NCBI GenBank assembly: GCA_021199635.1 | Contig: JAJQHS010000112.1 | Coordinates: 1 to 39,336, forward strand | Source: Bacillota bacterium | GTDB lineage: Bacteria > Bacillota > Clostridia > Oscillospirales > Oscillospiraceae | Direction: 5' to 3' | Length of the DNA stretch: 39,336 nucleotides | Part shown: one piece after another, positions 3,547 through 27,364 of the stretch | Position numbering within the stretch: position 1 is the stretch's first letter | Layout: every line of letters starts with the position of its first letter | Position numbers and translations under genes: made by a program | Notes under the pieces: model-generated | Databases searched by the model: none | What the model was told of the DNA's origin: nothing | The model's input: the letters and a program-made list of their open reading frames with translations, nothing else

Positions 3547-5493
3547 TTACGCCTCCTCAGTCGGATCCGCGGGCGCCTCCAGCAGCGCGCGAATGGACAG
3601 GGAAATACGCTTGTTCTCCGCATCGATGTCAGTGATCTTTACGGTGACCGTCTGGCCCTCGGACAGCACATCCTCCGGCTTGCCGATCCGGCGATCGGCG
3701 ATCTGGGAGATGTGGATCAGGCCGTCAACGCCGGGGATAATTTCCGCGAAGGCGCCGAAGGTCATCATCTTCACGACCTTGGCATCCACCACATCGCCCA
3801 CGTTGTAATTGGTCATGAACTGGTTCCAGGGGTTCATCTCAGCGGTCTTGTAGCCCAGGGAGATTTTGTGCTTCTCCGGGTCAAAGGAGATGACGTATAC
3901 GTCGATCTCATCGCCCACCTTGACCACATCGGCAGGGGTCTTGATACGGTTCCAGCTCAGCTCGGAAACATGGACCATGCCATCCACGCCGCCGATGTCC
4001 ACGAATGCGCCGTAAGAAGTCAGGGACTTCACAACGCCGTGATACTTCTTGCCCTTTTCGATCTCGCTCCAGATCTTCTCCTGGGCAGCCTTCCGCTCCT
4101 CCGCCTTGACAGCGCGGATGGAGCCGATGACGCGGCGGCGGGCGCGGTTGACCTCGGTGATCTTCATCTTAACGGTCTTGCCGACCTGGCCGGCCATATC
4201 GCCGCCCTTGGCAATGCCGGACTGGGAAGCGGGGATAAACACGCGGATGCCCTTGACCGTAGCCACCAGGCCACCCTTGTTCTCCTCAGTGATCTGTCCC
4301 TCGACCGTGGTCTTGTCCTCAACGTAGGACGCCATCTCGTCCCAAATCTTCAGGCCATCCAGCTTCTTCTTGGACAGCTGAACGGTGCCCTCCTGATCGT
4401 TGACCCGGACGACGAACACTTCGATTTCGTCGCCCACATGGAGAATGTCCTCCGGCTTCACGGAAGAATCGGCGCTGACTTCGTCATAGGGAATGTAGCC
4501 GGCGTGCTTGGTTCCAAGGTCCACCTGGACTTCGGTATTTCCGATTCCAGTGACGGTGCCGGTAACCTTATCTCCTGTATTTAAAGTCTTGATAGACTGT
4601 TCCAGGAGCTCCTCGAAGTTCTCCTCCTGTACAGCATCAGCATTGGTAATTTCACTCATAGTCTTGTTGACCTCCTTTATTATCCACGCCGGCGTGGAGG
4701 CACCGGCAGTGATTCCAACTTCACTTACACCGCGAAAAAATTCAGGCTCCAGTTCGGAAGCGTTATCCACGAGCATCACCTTATCGCAGTGCTTCCGGCA
4801 GATCGCAGCCAGCTGCATGGTGTTGGAGCTCTTGCTGTCCCCAACCACAACCATGGCGCCGCATTCGGCGCTGAGCTGGGCGGCTTCCGTCTGCCTATAT
4901 TCAGTCGCTCTACATATTGTATCAAAGATTTTCAAGTTAGTAAACTGTTTTTTTGCATTTTGGACGCTTTTTTTCCACAAAAATTCTGCGGAGGTGGTCT
5001 GTGAGACCATGCAAACCGGGGTTTCCGGCGAAATTTCTCCCGATTCGATCCAGTCCTCCAGCGCCTGTGGAGAATCAAAAATCCGGCAATCTTTGCACCA
5101 CCCGGCGATCCCCTGTATCTCCGGATGACTGGGCGTACCCATGATCAGCGGCAGACGCCCGGACGCCTCCTCCTTCTCCACAATACCGTGGATCCGCTTG
5201 ACGAACGGGCAGGTAGCATCAATGATCTCCACCCCCCGGGCCTGAAGCTGCTGGTAAACCGCCCGTGGCACCCCATGGGAACGGATGACCACCGTCATCC
5301 CCGGCTCCGCCTGCTCCGGCGAGTCGATCACGCGAATCCCCATCTGCTCAAAGTGAGCAACCATGTGCCTGTTATGGATGATCGGCCCAAGGGTGACTAC
5401 CTGGGCACCGGAGGAGGCCGCCTGCTCCACCATTTCCACCGCGCGGCTTACGCCGAAGCAGAAGCCCGCGCTTTTCGCGACCCGGACGGTCAT
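3547..5493 (-). CDS. ispH-rpsA: Bifunctional 4-hydroxy-3-methylbut-2-enyl diphosphate reductase / 30S ribosomal protein S1 (IspH-RpsA fusion)
   Basis: N-terminus [23 protein letters not shown] (IspH) continuous with four S1 OB-fold repeats. Confidence 0.95.
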
Positions 5494-15160: not shown

Positions 15161-15193
15161 AGCCGACAGAATCACGCTTTGGAGGATACGGAT

Positions 15194-16093
15194 ATGCTCA
15201 CGAGAGAGGATTTTTGGGAAAAATTAGGCGACGGAGTGTACTTTCTGGATGGCGCCACCGGCTCCAATCTGCTTGCGGCCGGGATGCCCAGGGGGATCTG
15301 CTCTGAAAAATGGGTGCTGGAGCACCCGGATATTCTGGTGGATCTGCAGCGCCGCTATGCCGCATCCGGGGCGCAGATCATTTACGCACCCACCTTCCAG
15401 GCGCAGCCAATTGCCCTGAAAGCCGTTGGTTGGGAGGCGCAGACCGAGGATGTGAACCGGCGCCTGGTAGCGCTCTCCCGCTCTGCCGCGCCGGATTGCC
15501 TGATCGCCGGGGATATCGCCACCCTGGCTGCCTTCTGCGACAGCTGGGACCCGAAGAATTTCGACCTTTTGGTGGAGAATTACCGCCGCCAGATTCGGGG
15601 GCTTCTGGATGCGGATCTTCTGATCGCGGAAACCCTCCTTTACCCACAGGAGGCTGAGGCCGTCCTGTGCGCCGCAGAGCTGGAGGGGGCGGGGGCTGTG
15701 ATGTACAGCTTCACCATGCAGCCGGATGGTACGCTGTTCTCCGGGGCGGATGCCGGTCCGGTCCTGCGGGAGCTGGAGGCGGCGGGAGCCGCCGCTGTAG
15801 GCTTCAACTGTGTCGCGGCGGACATGATGACGCCGTACCTGGTGAGCAAGCTGCGGCGCTATGTAAAGGGCCCCCTGCTGTGCAAGCCCAATGCCGGTTT
15901 GCCGGTGATCAACGACCAGGGCATCGCGGAATACCCCATGGAGCCGGAGGAATTCTCTCAGATCCTGCTGCAATGCGGCCAGAACGGCGCCCGGCTCCTG
16001 GGCGGCTGCTGCGGGACCACGCCTGCGCATATGACCGCCGCAGTGCAGAAAAGAATGGAAATTTCCGATTTTTCCAAGAAAACCGGAAATTAA
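15194..16093 (+). CDS. Homocysteine S-methyltransferase family protein
   Basis: FLDGATGSNLLAAGMPRG; C-terminal GARLLGGCCGTTPAHM zinc-binding motif; GGAGG upstream of ATG at 15194. Confidence 0.92.
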   Translation: MLTREDFWEKLGDGVYFLDGATGSNLLAAGMPRGICSEKWVLEHPDILVDLQRRYAASGAQIIYAPTFQAQPIALKAVGWEAQTEDVNRRLVALSRSAAPDCLIAGDIATLAAFCDSWDPKNFDLLVENYRRQIRGLLDADLLIAETLLYPQEAEAVLCAAELEGAGAVMYSFTMQPDGTLFSGADAGPVLRELEAAGAAAVGFNCVAADMMTPYLVSKLRRYVKGPLLCKPNAGLPVINDQGIAEYPMEPEEFSQILLQCGQNGARLLGGCCGTTPAHMTAAVQKRMEISDFSKKTGN

Positions 16094-16095
16094 GG

Positions 16096-16124
16096 TTGCG
16101 AATATTGGCGACGTCTGTTATAAT
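16096..16124 (+). promoter_or_regulatory. Sigma-70-type promoter very close to start codon
   Basis: TTGCGA (16096-16101) - 17 nt - TATAAT (16119-16124). Confidence 0.75.
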
Positions 16125-16133
16125 GGCATTGTT

Positions 16134-17555
16134 ATGGAAAGAAGAATGCGTCTACATCTGTATGTCAGCCGGAAAAATCCGCTGGCATGGCTGATGGCAC
16201 TCTGCCTTGTCGGCTCGGCAGTGGCCCGCATTGTGATCGCCTGTTTGAAAGGGTCAGGTGAATCGCTTCAAGTGTGGAGCCAAATTGTTCTGCCAGTAGC
16301 AGCCACACTGCTGTTTGTGCTCATCGTACTCCTGGACGGGAAAGAGCGGTTTTATAAAACGGCCATTCCTGTCGCCCTGATGGCGGTTTTCTACGCCATC
16401 CGTCCCCATGAGATCATGACCAGCACCATCGTCCGTGGGATGTACTACACCTGCCTGGTGTTCTACTGCCTGGTGTATCTGGTGATCTCCTCCGGGCGGC
16501 TGCGCTACCCCTGGCTGCTGCTGTTTCTGTTCGGCGCGCCCCTGGCCGCTGTGGGCTATGCCCACTGGACCCTGATCGGGCGTGGCTTTGTGGAGATTCT
16601 GTACTATGTGCTGCCGGAGTATTTGCTGTTCCTGGGCGGGATCCTGCTGGTCTTCGCCATCCGGGTGCATACGGACGGCACATATCACCCCACCTGGGGC
16701 GACCGTTCGGACGGGCGGCGCATCCGCAGCCTGTCCGCTATGAATCAGGTTTCGCCCTACATCATGGTGACCCGGAATTCCTCCGACAATAGCTTTGAGG
16801 ATTCCTTCGAAATCAGCCATGTGGATCGTTATATCCGCAAAAAGCGGAAGGAGGGCCTGACAAACTTCGGCATCACCCATGTCCTGCTGGCCTGCTATCT
16901 GCGCACCCTGTGCAAATACCCCGGGCTGAACCGATTCCTGGCTGGCCAGAAGGTGTACACCCATGGGGACGACGTGCAGTACTGCATGACGATCAAGAAG
17001 GAAATGTCCGCCGAATCCCCTGACACCGTCATCAAGGTTCACCTGAAGCCCACCGATACCGCGGACGATGTGTACCGAAAGCTCCAGGCCGCTGTGGACG
17101 AAGTGAAGAATTCCTCGCTGGATTCCGATTTCGACAATACCGCCGCCGCGTTTACCCTGATTCCCGGTGTGTTCCTGAAATTTGTGGTGTGGCTGCTGCG
17201 GACGCTGGATTATTTCGGACTGCTGCCCAAATTCCTGCTGGAAGTCAGCCCGTTCCATGGCAGCCTGTTCTTCACCTCCATGGGCTCGCTGGGTATTCCG
17301 CCTGTGTACCATCACCTTTATGACTTCGGCAATCTGCCGGTCTTTGCCGCCTTCGGCTGCAAGCGCAAGGCCATCGAGGTGCAGGAAGATGGCACGGTCG
17401 TCCAGCGCAAGTATGTGGATGTGAAATTCACCCTGGACGAACGGATCGTGGATGGCTACTATTACGCCGCGTTCTTCAAGCATTATAAGCGGCTGCTTGC
17501 CCATCCCGAGGTCCTGGATAATCCCCCGGATGTCGTGCTCCAGGACATTGACTGA
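16134..17555 (+). CDS. Membrane protein with C-terminal 2-oxoacid dehydrogenase E2 / CAT-like acyltransferase domain
   Basis: N-terminal hydrophobic segments; C-terminal FFTSMGSLGIPPVYHHLYDFGNLPVFAAFGCKRKAIEVQEDGTVVQRKYVDVKFTLDERIVDGYYYAAFFKHYKRLLAHP resembles E2 catalytic core (DHRxxDG -> DERIVDG). Confidence 0.8.
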   Translation: MERRMRLHLYVSRKNPLAWLMALCLVGSAVARIVIACLKGSGESLQVWSQIVLPVAATLLFVLIVLLDGKERFYKTAIPVALMAVFYAIRPHEIMTSTIVRGMYYTCLVFYCLVYLVISSGRLRYPWLLLFLFGAPLAAVGYAHWTLIGRGFVEILYYVLPEYLLFLGGILLVFAIRVHTDGTYHPTWGDRSDGRRIRSLSAMNQVSPYIMVTRNSSDNSFEDSFEISHVDRYIRKKRKEGLTNFGITHVLLACYLRTLCKYPGLNRFLAGQKVYTHGDDVQYCMTIKKEMSAESPDTVIKVHLKPTDTADDVYRKLQAAVDEVKNSSLDSDFDNTAAAFTLIPGVFLKFVVWLLRTLDYFGLLPKFLLEVSPFHGSLFFTSMGSLGIPPVYHHLYDFGNLPVFAAFGCKRKAIEVQEDGTVVQRKYVDVKFTLDERIVDGYYYAAFFKHYKRLLAHPEVLDNPPDVVLQDID

Positions 17556-17560
17556 TACTT

Positions 17561-18358
17561 ATGATTGATTCGATTTTAGCTGCTCTGCCAGGGGATTTCC
17601 CCTGGCAGAATCAAATTCACTGGTTCGACACCATCGACTCCACCAACACCCGCGCCAAAGCTATGGCACGCCAGGGCGCGCCCCACGGGACCATCCTCAT
17701 CGCGGACCGGCAGACCGGTGGGCGCGGCAGGCTGGGGCGCAGCTTCCACTCCCCCGCCGGGATGGGCATTTACATGAGCGTGCTGCTGCGGCCCCAGTGT
17801 CCGCCGGAGGCGCTGATGCACCTGACCTGCGCGGCTGCGGTTGCCATGTGCGATGCCGTAGAAGAGGTGACCGGCATACGCCCGGGCATCAAGTGGATCA
17901 ACGACCTGGTGATCGGCCACCGGAAGCTGGCTGGGATCCTGACGGAGCTGACCCTTGGCAGCCACAGCGAGCACGTGGACGCGGCTGTGGTTGGCATCGG
18001 CATCAACTGCTGCCAGGCGGTTTCTGATTTTCCCCCGGAAATCCGGGATATGGCCTGCTCGCTGGAAATGGCGCTGGGCAGTCCGATTGACCGCGCGGCG
18101 CTGGCCGGCGCTATGATCCGTCACCTTTACCGGATGGGCAATGCGCTTCCCCAGAGAGATCAGATCCTGACCCGCTACCGCCGGGACTGCGTGACCCTCG
18201 GGCAGGAAATCTCCATTGCCCAGCCTGGGCTTGTGCGGCATGGTACCGCGCTGGATGTGGACGGAAACGGCGCGCTGCTGGTTCGCCTGCCGGACGGACA
18301 GGAGGAGGCAGTCAATTCCGGGGAGGTCAGCATCCGCGGGATGTACGGATACCTATAA
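17561..18358 (+). CDS. birA: Biotin--[acetyl-CoA-carboxylase] ligase, no N-terminal HTH
   Basis: DSTNTRAKAMARQGAPHGTILIADRQTGGRGRLGRSFHSPAGMGIYMSVLLRP, KWINDLVIGHRKLAGILTE. Confidence 0.95.
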   Translation: MIDSILAALPGDFPWQNQIHWFDTIDSTNTRAKAMARQGAPHGTILIADRQTGGRGRLGRSFHSPAGMGIYMSVLLRPQCPPEALMHLTCAAAVAMCDAVEEVTGIRPGIKWINDLVIGHRKLAGILTELTLGSHSEHVDAAVVGIGINCCQAVSDFPPEIRDMACSLEMALGSPIDRAALAGAMIRHLYRMGNALPQRDQILTRYRRDCVTLGQEISIAQPGLVRHGTALDVDGNGALLVRLPDGQEEAVNSGEVSIRGMYGYL

Positions 18359-18412: not shown

Positions 18413-18446
18413 GATAATGGATTTTTACAAAAAAGGAGGAATTACC

Positions 18447-18770
18447 ATGAAAGTATTCAATATTATCGCGAAGATCGTGGTTGCCCTTGCCGCTGTAGCC
18501 GGTGCTGTGTATGCTGCAGCCACCTATGGCGACAAGATCGTTGCCTGGGCAAAGAAGACGCTGAAGTGCTGCGGTGGCTGCTGCGGCGGCGACTGCACCT
18601 GCACGACTGAGGATACCGCTCCCGAGGAAGCCGTGCCGGAGGCGCCCTGCGCAGAGGAAGCTCCCACCGAGGAGGAAGTCCCTGCCTCCGAGGAGCCGGA
18701 AGCACCCGCCGAGGATGCCCCTGCTGAGGAAGACGGCGAACCCGCTTCCGAAGCCGACTTTGAAAACTGA
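18447..18770 (+). CDS. Small hypothetical protein: hydrophobic N-terminus, Cys-rich motif, acidic Pro/Glu/Ala tail
   Basis: AAAGGAGG RBS before ATG 18447; MKVFNIIAKIVVALAAVAGAVYAAATYGDKIVAWAKKTLKCCGGCCGGDCTCTTEDTAPEEAVPEAP... Confidence 0.8.
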   Translation: MKVFNIIAKIVVALAAVAGAVYAAATYGDKIVAWAKKTLKCCGGCCGGDCTCTTEDTAPEEAVPEAPCAEEAPTEEEVPASEEPEAPAEDAPAEEDGEPASEADFEN

Positions 18771-18786
18771 GATTGACCCAAAGATT

Positions 18787-18817
18787 GGGCTGCTGCGTGT
18801 GCAGCAGCCCTGTTTTT
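18787..18817 (+). terminator. Intrinsic terminator
   Basis: GGGCTGCTGC GTGT GCAGCAGCCC followed by TGTTTTT. Confidence 0.88.
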
Positions 18818-24743: not shown

Positions 24744-25682
24744 ATGGAGGGTACCATGCCGCATTCGAAACCGCGCCGCCGTGCCGCCAGGCGCAATCCC
24801 CTGGCGTTCACTCTGCTGATTGCAATTGGATTGGCTTTGATCCTGATCCTGGTCACGTCTCACCGCACTTCCCCTGCATCCCAGGATAATTCCACTGCCA
24901 GCAGCACTGCGGAGAGCACCACGCAAGCCACAGAATCCACTGAAAGTACCACTGAGCCTGTCACCGAAACCGTCACCGAGCCTCCGGCCACCACAGAAAT
25001 GATATTCGCGTCCGAGGCGGAGGAAAAAATCTACGCCTACGCAATGGCCAACGGCCTGAGCATGGACGATTACCCGGATTTCATGGTGGAACTGCTGAAC
25101 ACCAACCCGGAAACAGAAACCTATGTCCTGGAATACCCGTTCGCGAAAGACGCATCCTACACCATTGACCTTTCCGACCTGGCCGGATGCACTGAGGTGC
25201 CGCTGCTGCTGCAATGGGATTCCCGCTGGGGCTACATAGAATACGGTTCCAGTCTCGCCGGGCTGACCGCCTGCGGCCCCACCTGCCTGTCCATGGTGGC
25301 CATATATCTGACCCAGAACACCAGCTATACCCCTGCCTATATGATTCAGTACGCGCTGGATAACAATTACTACGTAGTTGGCAGCGGGACCTCGTGGTCA
25401 TTGTTCAGCCAGGGAACCGCTGCATTGGGAATGCAGGCGGAGGAGCTTCCCCTGTCCAAGAGCGTCATCATTTCCCGCCTTGAGGCGGGCCAGCCGGTAG
25501 TATGCTCCATGGGTCCGGGGCTCTTTACCACACAAGGGCATTTTATCGTTCTGGTAGGTGTGGAGGATGGAAAATTCCGAGTCAACGACCCGAACAGCCC
25601 CCAGCGCTCCGCAATGCTCTGGGACTACGATGACATTGAAGACCAGATCCGGAACCTTTGGGCGATTTCCCTGAGTTCCTGA
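24744..25682 (+). CDS. Membrane-anchored C39-family-like peptidase
   Basis: N-terminal TM, Ser/Thr/Glu-rich linker, LLLQWDSRWGYIEYGSSLAGLTACGPTCLSMVAIYLT (Cys) and GHFIVLVGVEDGKFRVNDPNS (His/Asp); start may be MEGTM or MPHSK. Confidence 0.85.
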   Translation: MEGTMPHSKPRRRAARRNPLAFTLLIAIGLALILILVTSHRTSPASQDNSTASSTAESTTQATESTESTTEPVTETVTEPPATTEMIFASEAEEKIYAYAMANGLSMDDYPDFMVELLNTNPETETYVLEYPFAKDASYTIDLSDLAGCTEVPLLLQWDSRWGYIEYGSSLAGLTACGPTCLSMVAIYLTQNTSYTPAYMIQYALDNNYYVVGSGTSWSLFSQGTAALGMQAEELPLSKSVIISRLEAGQPVVCSMGPGLFTTQGHFIVLVGVEDGKFRVNDPNSPQRSAMLWDYDDIEDQIRNLWAISLSS

Positions 25683-25708: not shown

Positions 25709-27364
25709 ATGAAAAAATTTGTCCGTAAAGTCGCATCCATTTCCGTCGTCTTCTGCCTGGTGTGCATCATGCTCACCGGTGTCAGCGCCGCATCCACTAA
25801 AATCACGACCACAGCCACCGGATATACCAGCGCATCCGATGTGGAATACGTCATCGTCAGCGGGACCGTAGTGAACTGGGGCGCCCGGAATGAGGACTGC
25901 GTCTTCTTATCCACCTATGCCCTGGAGTACTACACTGGCAGCTATACTTACGATACCTTTGCCGCCCTGGACGGCGGCACATCCCAGAGCAGCGCTCCCA
26001 GCAGTGCGCTGTACAGCGCTTTGCAAAGTATGATGCAGGCCATGCACACAAACATCCAGACCTATCAGGCCACCCGCCAATACTACCAATATACCGATTG
26101 CGTCAGCAATAATTACGCCAAAATTTCCGCCTTCTACTCCGGCACCCTGGTGAACAGCACATGGGACGGCGGCGTGACCTACAATCGGGAGCATATCTGG
26201 CCGGACAGCAAGTGCATCGATTCCGGGCGCAGCACCAACGACAGCGCGGACATTATGACACTGCGGGCAACCACCCCCTCTGAAAACGGCTCCCGCGGCA
26301 ACACCGCCTACGGGGAGAGCAGCGGCTATTTTGATCCAGGCGTTTCCGTCCGGGGCGACTGCGCCAGAATGCTGCTGTATACCTACGTCCGCTGGGGCAA
26401 CACCAGCAAGATGTGGGGCACCAGCGGCGTAATTGAGAATCTGGATGTGCTTCTGCGCTGGATGGAGGAGGACCCGGTGGACACCTGGGAAATGGGCCGC
26501 AACGATGCGGTGCAGTCCATCACCGGCGTGCGGAACGTGTTTGTGGACTATCCGGAGCTGGCCTGGCTGCTGTTTGGTGAGGAAGTACCTGAGGACATGG
26601 TGACGCCCTCCGGTGAGGCCGCAAGCGGCTCCTCCGGCGGTTCCTCTTCCGGCGGTACCACCACCTGCTCCCACACCCATACAACGATCCGCAATGCCAC
26701 GGAAGCCACCTGCACAACGGACGGCTATACCGGCGATACCTACTGCACCGACTGCGGCGTGAAGCTGTCCTCCGGCACCACGATCAGCAAGACCGGGCAT
26801 AAGGGCGTTACTGTGAACCAGAAAAACGCGACCTGTGGGACGGATGGCTACACCGGGGATACCGTGTGCAAATACTGCGGAACCAAGCTGTACTCCGGCA
26901 TTGTCCTGGAGGCCACCGGCGCCCATACTTACGGCGAATGGGTGGTGACTGTGGAAGCAACAGATTCTACCCCGGGCAGTCAGGAGCACACCTGCACTGT
27001 ATGCGGCGCAACAGAAACCCAGGAGATCCCTGCGCTTTCCAGCAGCGGCACTGCGGACACTACCGCACCAGCGGAAACAGCAGAGCCTGAGGAAACGCTC
27101 CCCCCTTCGGAAGCAACAGAAGCTACGGAAGCAGACCAGACCTCCCCCGCCCAATCGGAAACCGATCCTGCGGAAACGGACAACTCCGACGCGGCCACCG
27201 AAGCGGGGCAGACCCTCTCCCCCACGGAATCCGGAGATGATTCCGCCACCGCGATCAGCGGGATCAGGTCGATCGTTCTGGTTTGCGCCGCAGTGCTGGC
27301 CGGTGCCGCGATCGTCATCATAATCCTTGTCCGTAAGAAACGGTCAGAGTCCGAACAACAGTAA
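25709..27364 (+). CDS. Secreted/membrane-anchored endonuclease I-like nuclease with CxxC repeats
   Basis: Signal peptide; YNREHIWPDSKCID and SENGSRGNTAYGE match EndA/NucM-type nucleases; two DGYTGDTxCxxCG repeats; C-terminal TM plus RKKR. Confidence 0.85.
   Translation: MKKFVRKVASISVVFCLVCIMLTGVSAASTKITTTATGYTSASDVEYVIVSGTVVNWGARNEDCVFLSTYALEYYTGSYTYDTFAALDGGTSQSSAPSSALYSALQSMMQAMHTNIQTYQATRQYYQYTDCVSNNYAKISAFYSGTLVNSTWDGGVTYNREHIWPDSKCIDSGRSTNDSADIMTLRATTPSENGSRGNTAYGESSGYFDPGVSVRGDCARMLLYTYVRWGNTSKMWGTSGVIENLDVLLRWMEEDPVDTWEMGRNDAVQSITGVRNVFVDYPELAWLLFGEEVPEDMVTPSGEAASGSSGGSSSGGTTTCSHTHTTIRNATEATCTTDGYTGDTYCTDCGVKLSSGTTISKTGHKGVTVNQKNATCGTDGYTGDTVCKYCGTKLYSGIVLEATGAHTYGEWVVTVEATDSTPGSQEHTCTVCGATETQEIPALSSSGTADTTAPAETAEPEETLPPSEATEATEADQTSPAQSETDPAETDNSDAATEAGQTLSPTESGDDSATAISGIRSIVLVCAAVLAGAAIVIIILVRKKRSESEQQ
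26700..26930 (+). repeat. Two in-gene CxxC repeats of about 40 codons
   Basis: ATCTTDGYTGDTYCTDCGVKLSSGTTISKTGHK and ATCGTDGYTGDTVCKYCGTKLYSGIVLEATGAH. Confidence 0.85.

Follow-up and report, generated by a model that had tools for sequence, protein, structure and literature searches.

Among the described systems closest to the locus considered here are the catalytic cores of the E2 proteins of 2-oxoacid dehydrogenase complexes (PF00198; e.g., PDB 1b5s and 3mae) and chloramphenicol acetyltransferase type A (CAT), which is placed in the same fold superfamily and forms a homotrimer with the active sites at its interfaces. Loss of the catalytic histidine normally kills the activity of CAT/E2 enzymes. 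The mitochondrial E3-binding protein (protein X), a component of the PDH complex, is related to E2 but lacks a functional catalytic histidine; it contains both lipoyl and E3-binding domains. The Asp-His-Arg combination is common to every E2 sequence, and in E. coli E2p a salt bridge between the Asp and the Arg holds the catalytic His, which acts with Ser551 of the neighbouring subunit (PMC8421416). CAT requires its motif His as a general base, and in saCAT1, the CAT of S. aureus, the residues Phe152 and Leu154, located 10 and 12 positions past the transition-state Ser142, line the substrate pocket (PMC12549896).

The window, i.e., the whole stretch of 39,336 nucleotides that was analysed, contains a gene (Table 1) whose product was described in an earlier note as a repurposed acyltransferase or an acyl/CoA-binding pseudo-enzyme at the membrane. 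This turned out to be the right short list, as the CAT/E2 fold is present and DHR is absent throughout the family. In the AlphaFold2 model, obtained from a 56-row alignment (pLDDT 87.3), six long helices (residues 16-175) precede a CAT/E2-like alpha/beta domain, and the several hydrophobic segments already pointed out correspond to helices, of which six are predicted within the first ~175 residues. The structure comparison, set beforehand as a test able to refute the proposal, found the expected fold: all 50 among the Foldseek matches listed against the PDB were E2 cores or E2-related proteins (E ~1e-11 to 1e-9), and the TM scores of the listed E2-related matches were mostly 0.65-0.78 by target length. 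The profile of the family, aligned by hhalign with 19 Bacillota E2s, gave a probability of 98.9 and an E-value of 1.8e-17. The absence of a lipoyl domain, claimed earlier, was confirmed by Pfam, which gave PF00198 as the sole match of the focal protein (residues 415-460, 28.6 bits vs the curated cut-off of 23) and detected no peripheral subunit-binding domain either. For the focal protein NCBIfam gave no match near any cut-off, and no NCBIfam model reached its cut-off for the family.

Table 1. Features of the focal gene and its immediate surroundings (positions within the window)
Feature	Position	Strand	Details
Promoter-like site TTGCGA-17-TATAAT, extended -10 TG	16096..16124	+	just 5' of focal gene; consensus scan
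Focal gene	16134..17555	+	473 aa from ATG 16134 (ORF and translation)
Likely true start of focal gene	ATG 16146 (Met5)	+	gives 469 aa
Six transmembrane helices	16179..16658	+	residues 16-39, 44-68, 73-89, 98-119, 128-143, 153-175 (AlphaFold2 secondary structure)
CAT/E2-fold domain	16701..17528	+	residues ~190-465; Foldseek and hhalign
Family-specific insert, amphipathic hydrophobic helix	17130..17255	+	residues ~333-374; absent from E2 (hhalign gap)
T381	17274..17276	+	aligned with E2p transition-state Ser (hhalign); T 120 / S 26 of 146
His393-His394	17310..17315	+	invariant 146/146; 11 and 12 residues after E2 transition-state Ser (hhalign)
DERIVDG motif	17436..17456	+	residues 435-441; E436 stands where DHRxxDG has catalytic His
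birA-type biotin ligase gene	17561..18358	+	5 bp 3' of focal gene; Pfam/NCBIfam; synteny within genus
Terminator-like hairpin	18787..18810	+	consensus scan

The C-terminal sequence LDERIVDGYYYAAFFKHYKRLLAHP and the PVYHHLYDFG segment (His 393-394), both quoted previously, are present in the 473-aa translation, and the reported change of His to Glu holds for DERIVDG. Its conservation across orthologues, which had been put forward as a point to survey, was also found: canonical DHR occurs in no family member. The substitution therefore marks a whole family and not one protein, which goes beyond the earlier note. Conservation was counted in 148 distinct sequences, 146 of them aligned at the active-site columns. 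Position 436 is Glu in 140 of these and Asp in 6, never His; D435 and R437 are kept in 146/146, and S385, G399, G441, and N266 are likewise invariant. The D-x-R frame that positions His in E2 is thus retained. The last Asp of the motif is less constant, with D440 replaced by Ser or Asn in 6/146; in variants such as DERICSG, DDRVESG, DERIASG, and DERVSNG (L191, L193, L198, L199, L201, L206) this residue is altered, D-[ED]-R and the HH pair being kept, which indicates that D440 is dispensable and the acid at 436 is not. The hhalign alignment with the 19 Bacillota E2s places E436 on the catalytic His and T381 on the transition-state Ser. In the same alignment, Y392 corresponds to Phe568 of A. vinelandii E2p (transition-state Ser558), and H393/H394 occupy the two positions that follow. 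By mapping on Phe152/Leu154 of saCAT1, the His393-His394 pair is predicted to lie on the wall of the acceptor pocket. When compared to CAT, the family has a counterpart of the transition-state Ser/Thr (T381 by alignment, T/S in 146/146), whereas the CAT motif HHxxxDG with its general-base His is replaced by the acidic DERIVDG in the focal protein. The strict retention of the D-x-R frame, of an acid at 436, and of two new pocket histidines argues for altered chemistry rather than drift or decay.

The family shares with the E2 core the CAT fold, the D-x-R, the DG of the motif, and the transition-state Ser/Thr; it differs in lacking lipoyl and subunit-binding domains, in having Glu/Asp for the catalytic His, and in possessing an invariant His-His pair, a hydrophobic helical insert, and either a transmembrane anchor or lipid-gene partners. 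PF00198 scores above its cut-off in the focal protein and is matched in all 56 family members scanned, which might suggest a true E2 that works in a 2-oxoacid dehydrogenase complex and in which His has changed to Glu as an isolated event. This candidate is extremely improbable and was rejected, since Glu/Asp is fixed family-wide, the family forms a separate branch, and the host genome shows no E2/lipoyl system. In the host genome (95% complete), canonical E2 is absent, and the only two PF00198 proteins both belong to the family. A single Biotin_lipoyl domain was found there, with the biotin motif EAMKM, and no lipoyl-type domain; thus the focal protein has no lipoyl domain in this assembly to act on. 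No E1/E3 partner genes were recognised by eye among the open reading frames of the window. When the tree is rooted on 10 true E2s, a long branch with 100% support sets the family apart. It is related to the E2/CAT superfamily but does not function in 2-oxoacid dehydrogenase complexes.

The family is referred to here as DER/HH, after D-[ED]-R and the invariant HH, which together with the hydrophobic insert and the lack of a lipoyl domain define it and are all found in the focal protein. Dozens of genomes of Faecousia-like Oscillospiraceae carry close orthologues, mostly with the gene order unchanged. Searches gave matches in 91 of the 293 sampled Clostridia genomes; ~73 of them score E < 1e-58, the other ~18 match only weakly and over short stretches (E 1e-8 to 1e-4), as true lipoyl E2s do, and none falls between. 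The DER/HH family is thereby found in about a quarter of the sampled Clostridia genomes. It is rarer in the rest of the phylum, where the weak matches, as far as they are readable, are canonical DHR E2s, and among viral contigs one partial locus was found. Most members are ~290 aa long and have no transmembrane part. An example is WP_212821301.1 from a cultured strain of Vescimonas fastidiosa (277 aa, "hypothetical protein"), a member of the soluble type without a transmembrane part, 32% identical to the focal protein over query residues 191-464. A 548-aa reading frame (L106) was considered as a fusion and rejected, its extra N-terminus looking like non-coding read-through. The family is unstudied and widespread in gut Clostridia; targeted searches of the open-access literature returned no description of it. 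Its genes are annotated as hypothetical, as in V. fastidiosa, or are open to misreading as dihydrolipoamide acyltransferases.

The membrane-anchored type is confined almost wholly to one part of the tree, 8 of the 9 anchored rows forming one starred clade. Under an N-in/C-in topology, 14 basic residues (K+R) of the focal protein lie on inner segments vs 2 on outer ones, so the CAT domain is probably cytosolic. Modelled alone, the transmembrane domain reaches a pLDDT of 89 (AlphaFold2); the PDB holds no fold that matches it at E<0.001, Pfam gives no match, and no credible homologue was found outside its clade in 243 Clostridia genomes. A multi-helix protein, acyltransferase-3-like by eye, was the sole match beyond the clade (G279, E 6e-5); the resemblance was put down to chance similarity of hydrophobic segments. 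A degenerate PAP2 domain was also considered and dismissed, as PAP2 motifs, Pfam, and PDB folds gave no support and a locus of the same clade (L044) has a separate PAP2 gene. It is also worth noting that the insert segment 340-372 comprises 31-33 residues in all 56 diverse members, with a helix at 345-360 in the AlphaFold2 model. The amphipathic, hydrophobic character of the insert, which adds ~40 residues relative to E2, suggests contact with membranes or acyl chains in the "soluble" members as well.

Gene context was compared across the family. The sister branch adjoins a gene of long-chain acyl-CoA ligase in 18 loci from many families, of which 16 are co-directional and within 73 bp and two (L121, L122) were added on re-check. 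In G082 and G213, the E2-like domain is fused to a PAP2-like part, and PlsC is encoded directly upstream. The fusion, a natural one in which the PAP2-like domain has six helices, is seen at L164:8392-9900 and L186:6022-7530. Three loci have a MarR-type regulator ahead of the gene. The linkage to lipid genes is strong in the sister branch, whereas in the focal membrane-anchored clade it consists of a single PAP2 neighbour, a PAP2_3 gene 17 bp downstream in L044; the usual neighbours of the focal gene (homocysteine methyltransferase and birA) give no hint of lipids. Acyl groups and lipids are indicated by this recurrent association with acyl-CoA ligase, PlsC, and PAP2. The second family member of the host genome (G000:C99) belongs to the sister branch, is 27% identical to the focal protein, and has the motif DERIADG with YHH kept. 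Around it, at ~39100-43100 of its contig (L166:7103-11107, minus strand), the genes of a PlsC-like, a PAP2-like, an E2-like DER/HH, and a long-chain acyl-CoA ligase protein overlap; this four-gene run is a candidate for an uncharacterised lipid operon, parts of which are conserved across many Clostridia families.

One explanation, for which the chances are judged to be even, is that the focal protein is a lipid-directed acyltransferase at the inner face of the membrane with relocated catalytic histidines. It is proposed that the six transmembrane helices would hold the CAT/E2-fold domain at the cytosolic face, where the acyl group of acyl-CoA would be transferred to an acceptor in the membrane, either a lipid or a lipid-linked molecule. 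His393-His394 on the wall of the acceptor pocket would serve as the base, the Glu/Asp at the old position of the catalytic His would orient or polarise the pair, and Thr/Ser381 may stabilise the oxyanion. The active site would be trimeric, at the trimer interface, with CoA-dependent transfer by CAT as the model. The known effect of losing the catalytic His counts against an active enzyme, and every member lacks this residue, which favours a CAT-fold protein without catalytic activity, serving to bind acyl-CoA or acyl-lipid or to scaffold or regulate a neighbouring enzyme (acyl-CoA ligase, PAP2, or PlsC). The replacement of D440 in some members fits such a protein, and the PAP2 fusion or coupling and the adjacency to acyl-CoA ligase would suit a partner protein too. 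The E3-binding protein provides a precedent in having the E2 fold without the catalytic His, as does the family; its structure 6h60 was weakly matched (E 0.31). However, it has the lipoyl and E3-binding domains that the family lacks, and members down to ~25% identity still share the polar pocket residues (HH, E/D, T/S, S385, N266), a retention beyond usual structural need. A non-catalytic role is the main alternative, though the less likely one.

The other alternative concerns the type of chemistry. An invariant His-His pair with an acid is unlike the CAT mechanism, and PAP2 and ligase partners are compatible with various reactions, so that the His-His-Glu set might serve another reaction on acyl-CoA or lipid (e.g., hydrolysis or non-acyl transfer), perhaps with the help of a metal. 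This is unlikely, as the Thr/Ser at the E2 transition-state position and the Asp-x-Arg are retained, as in acyl transfer. Taken together, the evidence leans to a working enzyme, short of proof. The acyltransferase explanation can be extended to a wider scheme, in which catalysis would have moved from the otherwise universal C-terminal His to His-His and Glu/Asp, the protein would form with a dedicated acyl-CoA ligase, PlsC, and PAP2 a so far unrecognised pathway of membrane-lipid acylation, and the family would have gained its own six-helix anchor in Faecousia-like gut bacteria; this scheme is tentative and is given somewhat less than an even chance. The motif His is held indispensable in CAT/E2, and a family that lacks it and fixes another pair of pocket histidines offers a direct test of a rebuilt catalytic centre. 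If the protein is active, it would also point to an uncharacterised way of modifying lipids in Clostridia that are abundant in the gut.

The focal gene probably starts at Met5, because its homologues start near this codon and an SD-like GGAAAG (16136-16141) lies just 5' of it. The promoter-like site upstream, a good one of the sigma-70 type, is at most suggestive, since the consensus scan gave 3 such sites vs 1.8 expected in 3.9 kb. The focal gene and birA are possibly co-transcribed, and the hairpin is a possible end of a unit formed by the focal gene, birA, and a small gene 3' of birA. The protein encoded by the latter (18438-18770, + strand) has a hydrophobic segment at its N-terminus and a cluster of cysteines, CCGGCCGGDCTC; its tail is long and acidic. 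On the 5' side, a gene at 15179-16093 (+ strand), kept in this place within the genus, encodes a homocysteine S-methyltransferase domain (PF02574) alone, without the rest of MetH. The metH-like and birA neighbours were considered as clues to function and set aside, as divergent members of the focal clade are flanked by other genes. Elsewhere in the window, three observations were made by eye: one open reading frame (3547-5493, - strand) appears to fuse an IspH-like domain with S1-type RNA-binding repeats, another (25709-27364, + strand) encodes a nuclease-like protein that is secreted, has a tail rich in Ser/Thr/Glu, and carries a transmembrane segment at the C-terminus, and a C39-like peptidase (24744-25682) adjoins the latter.
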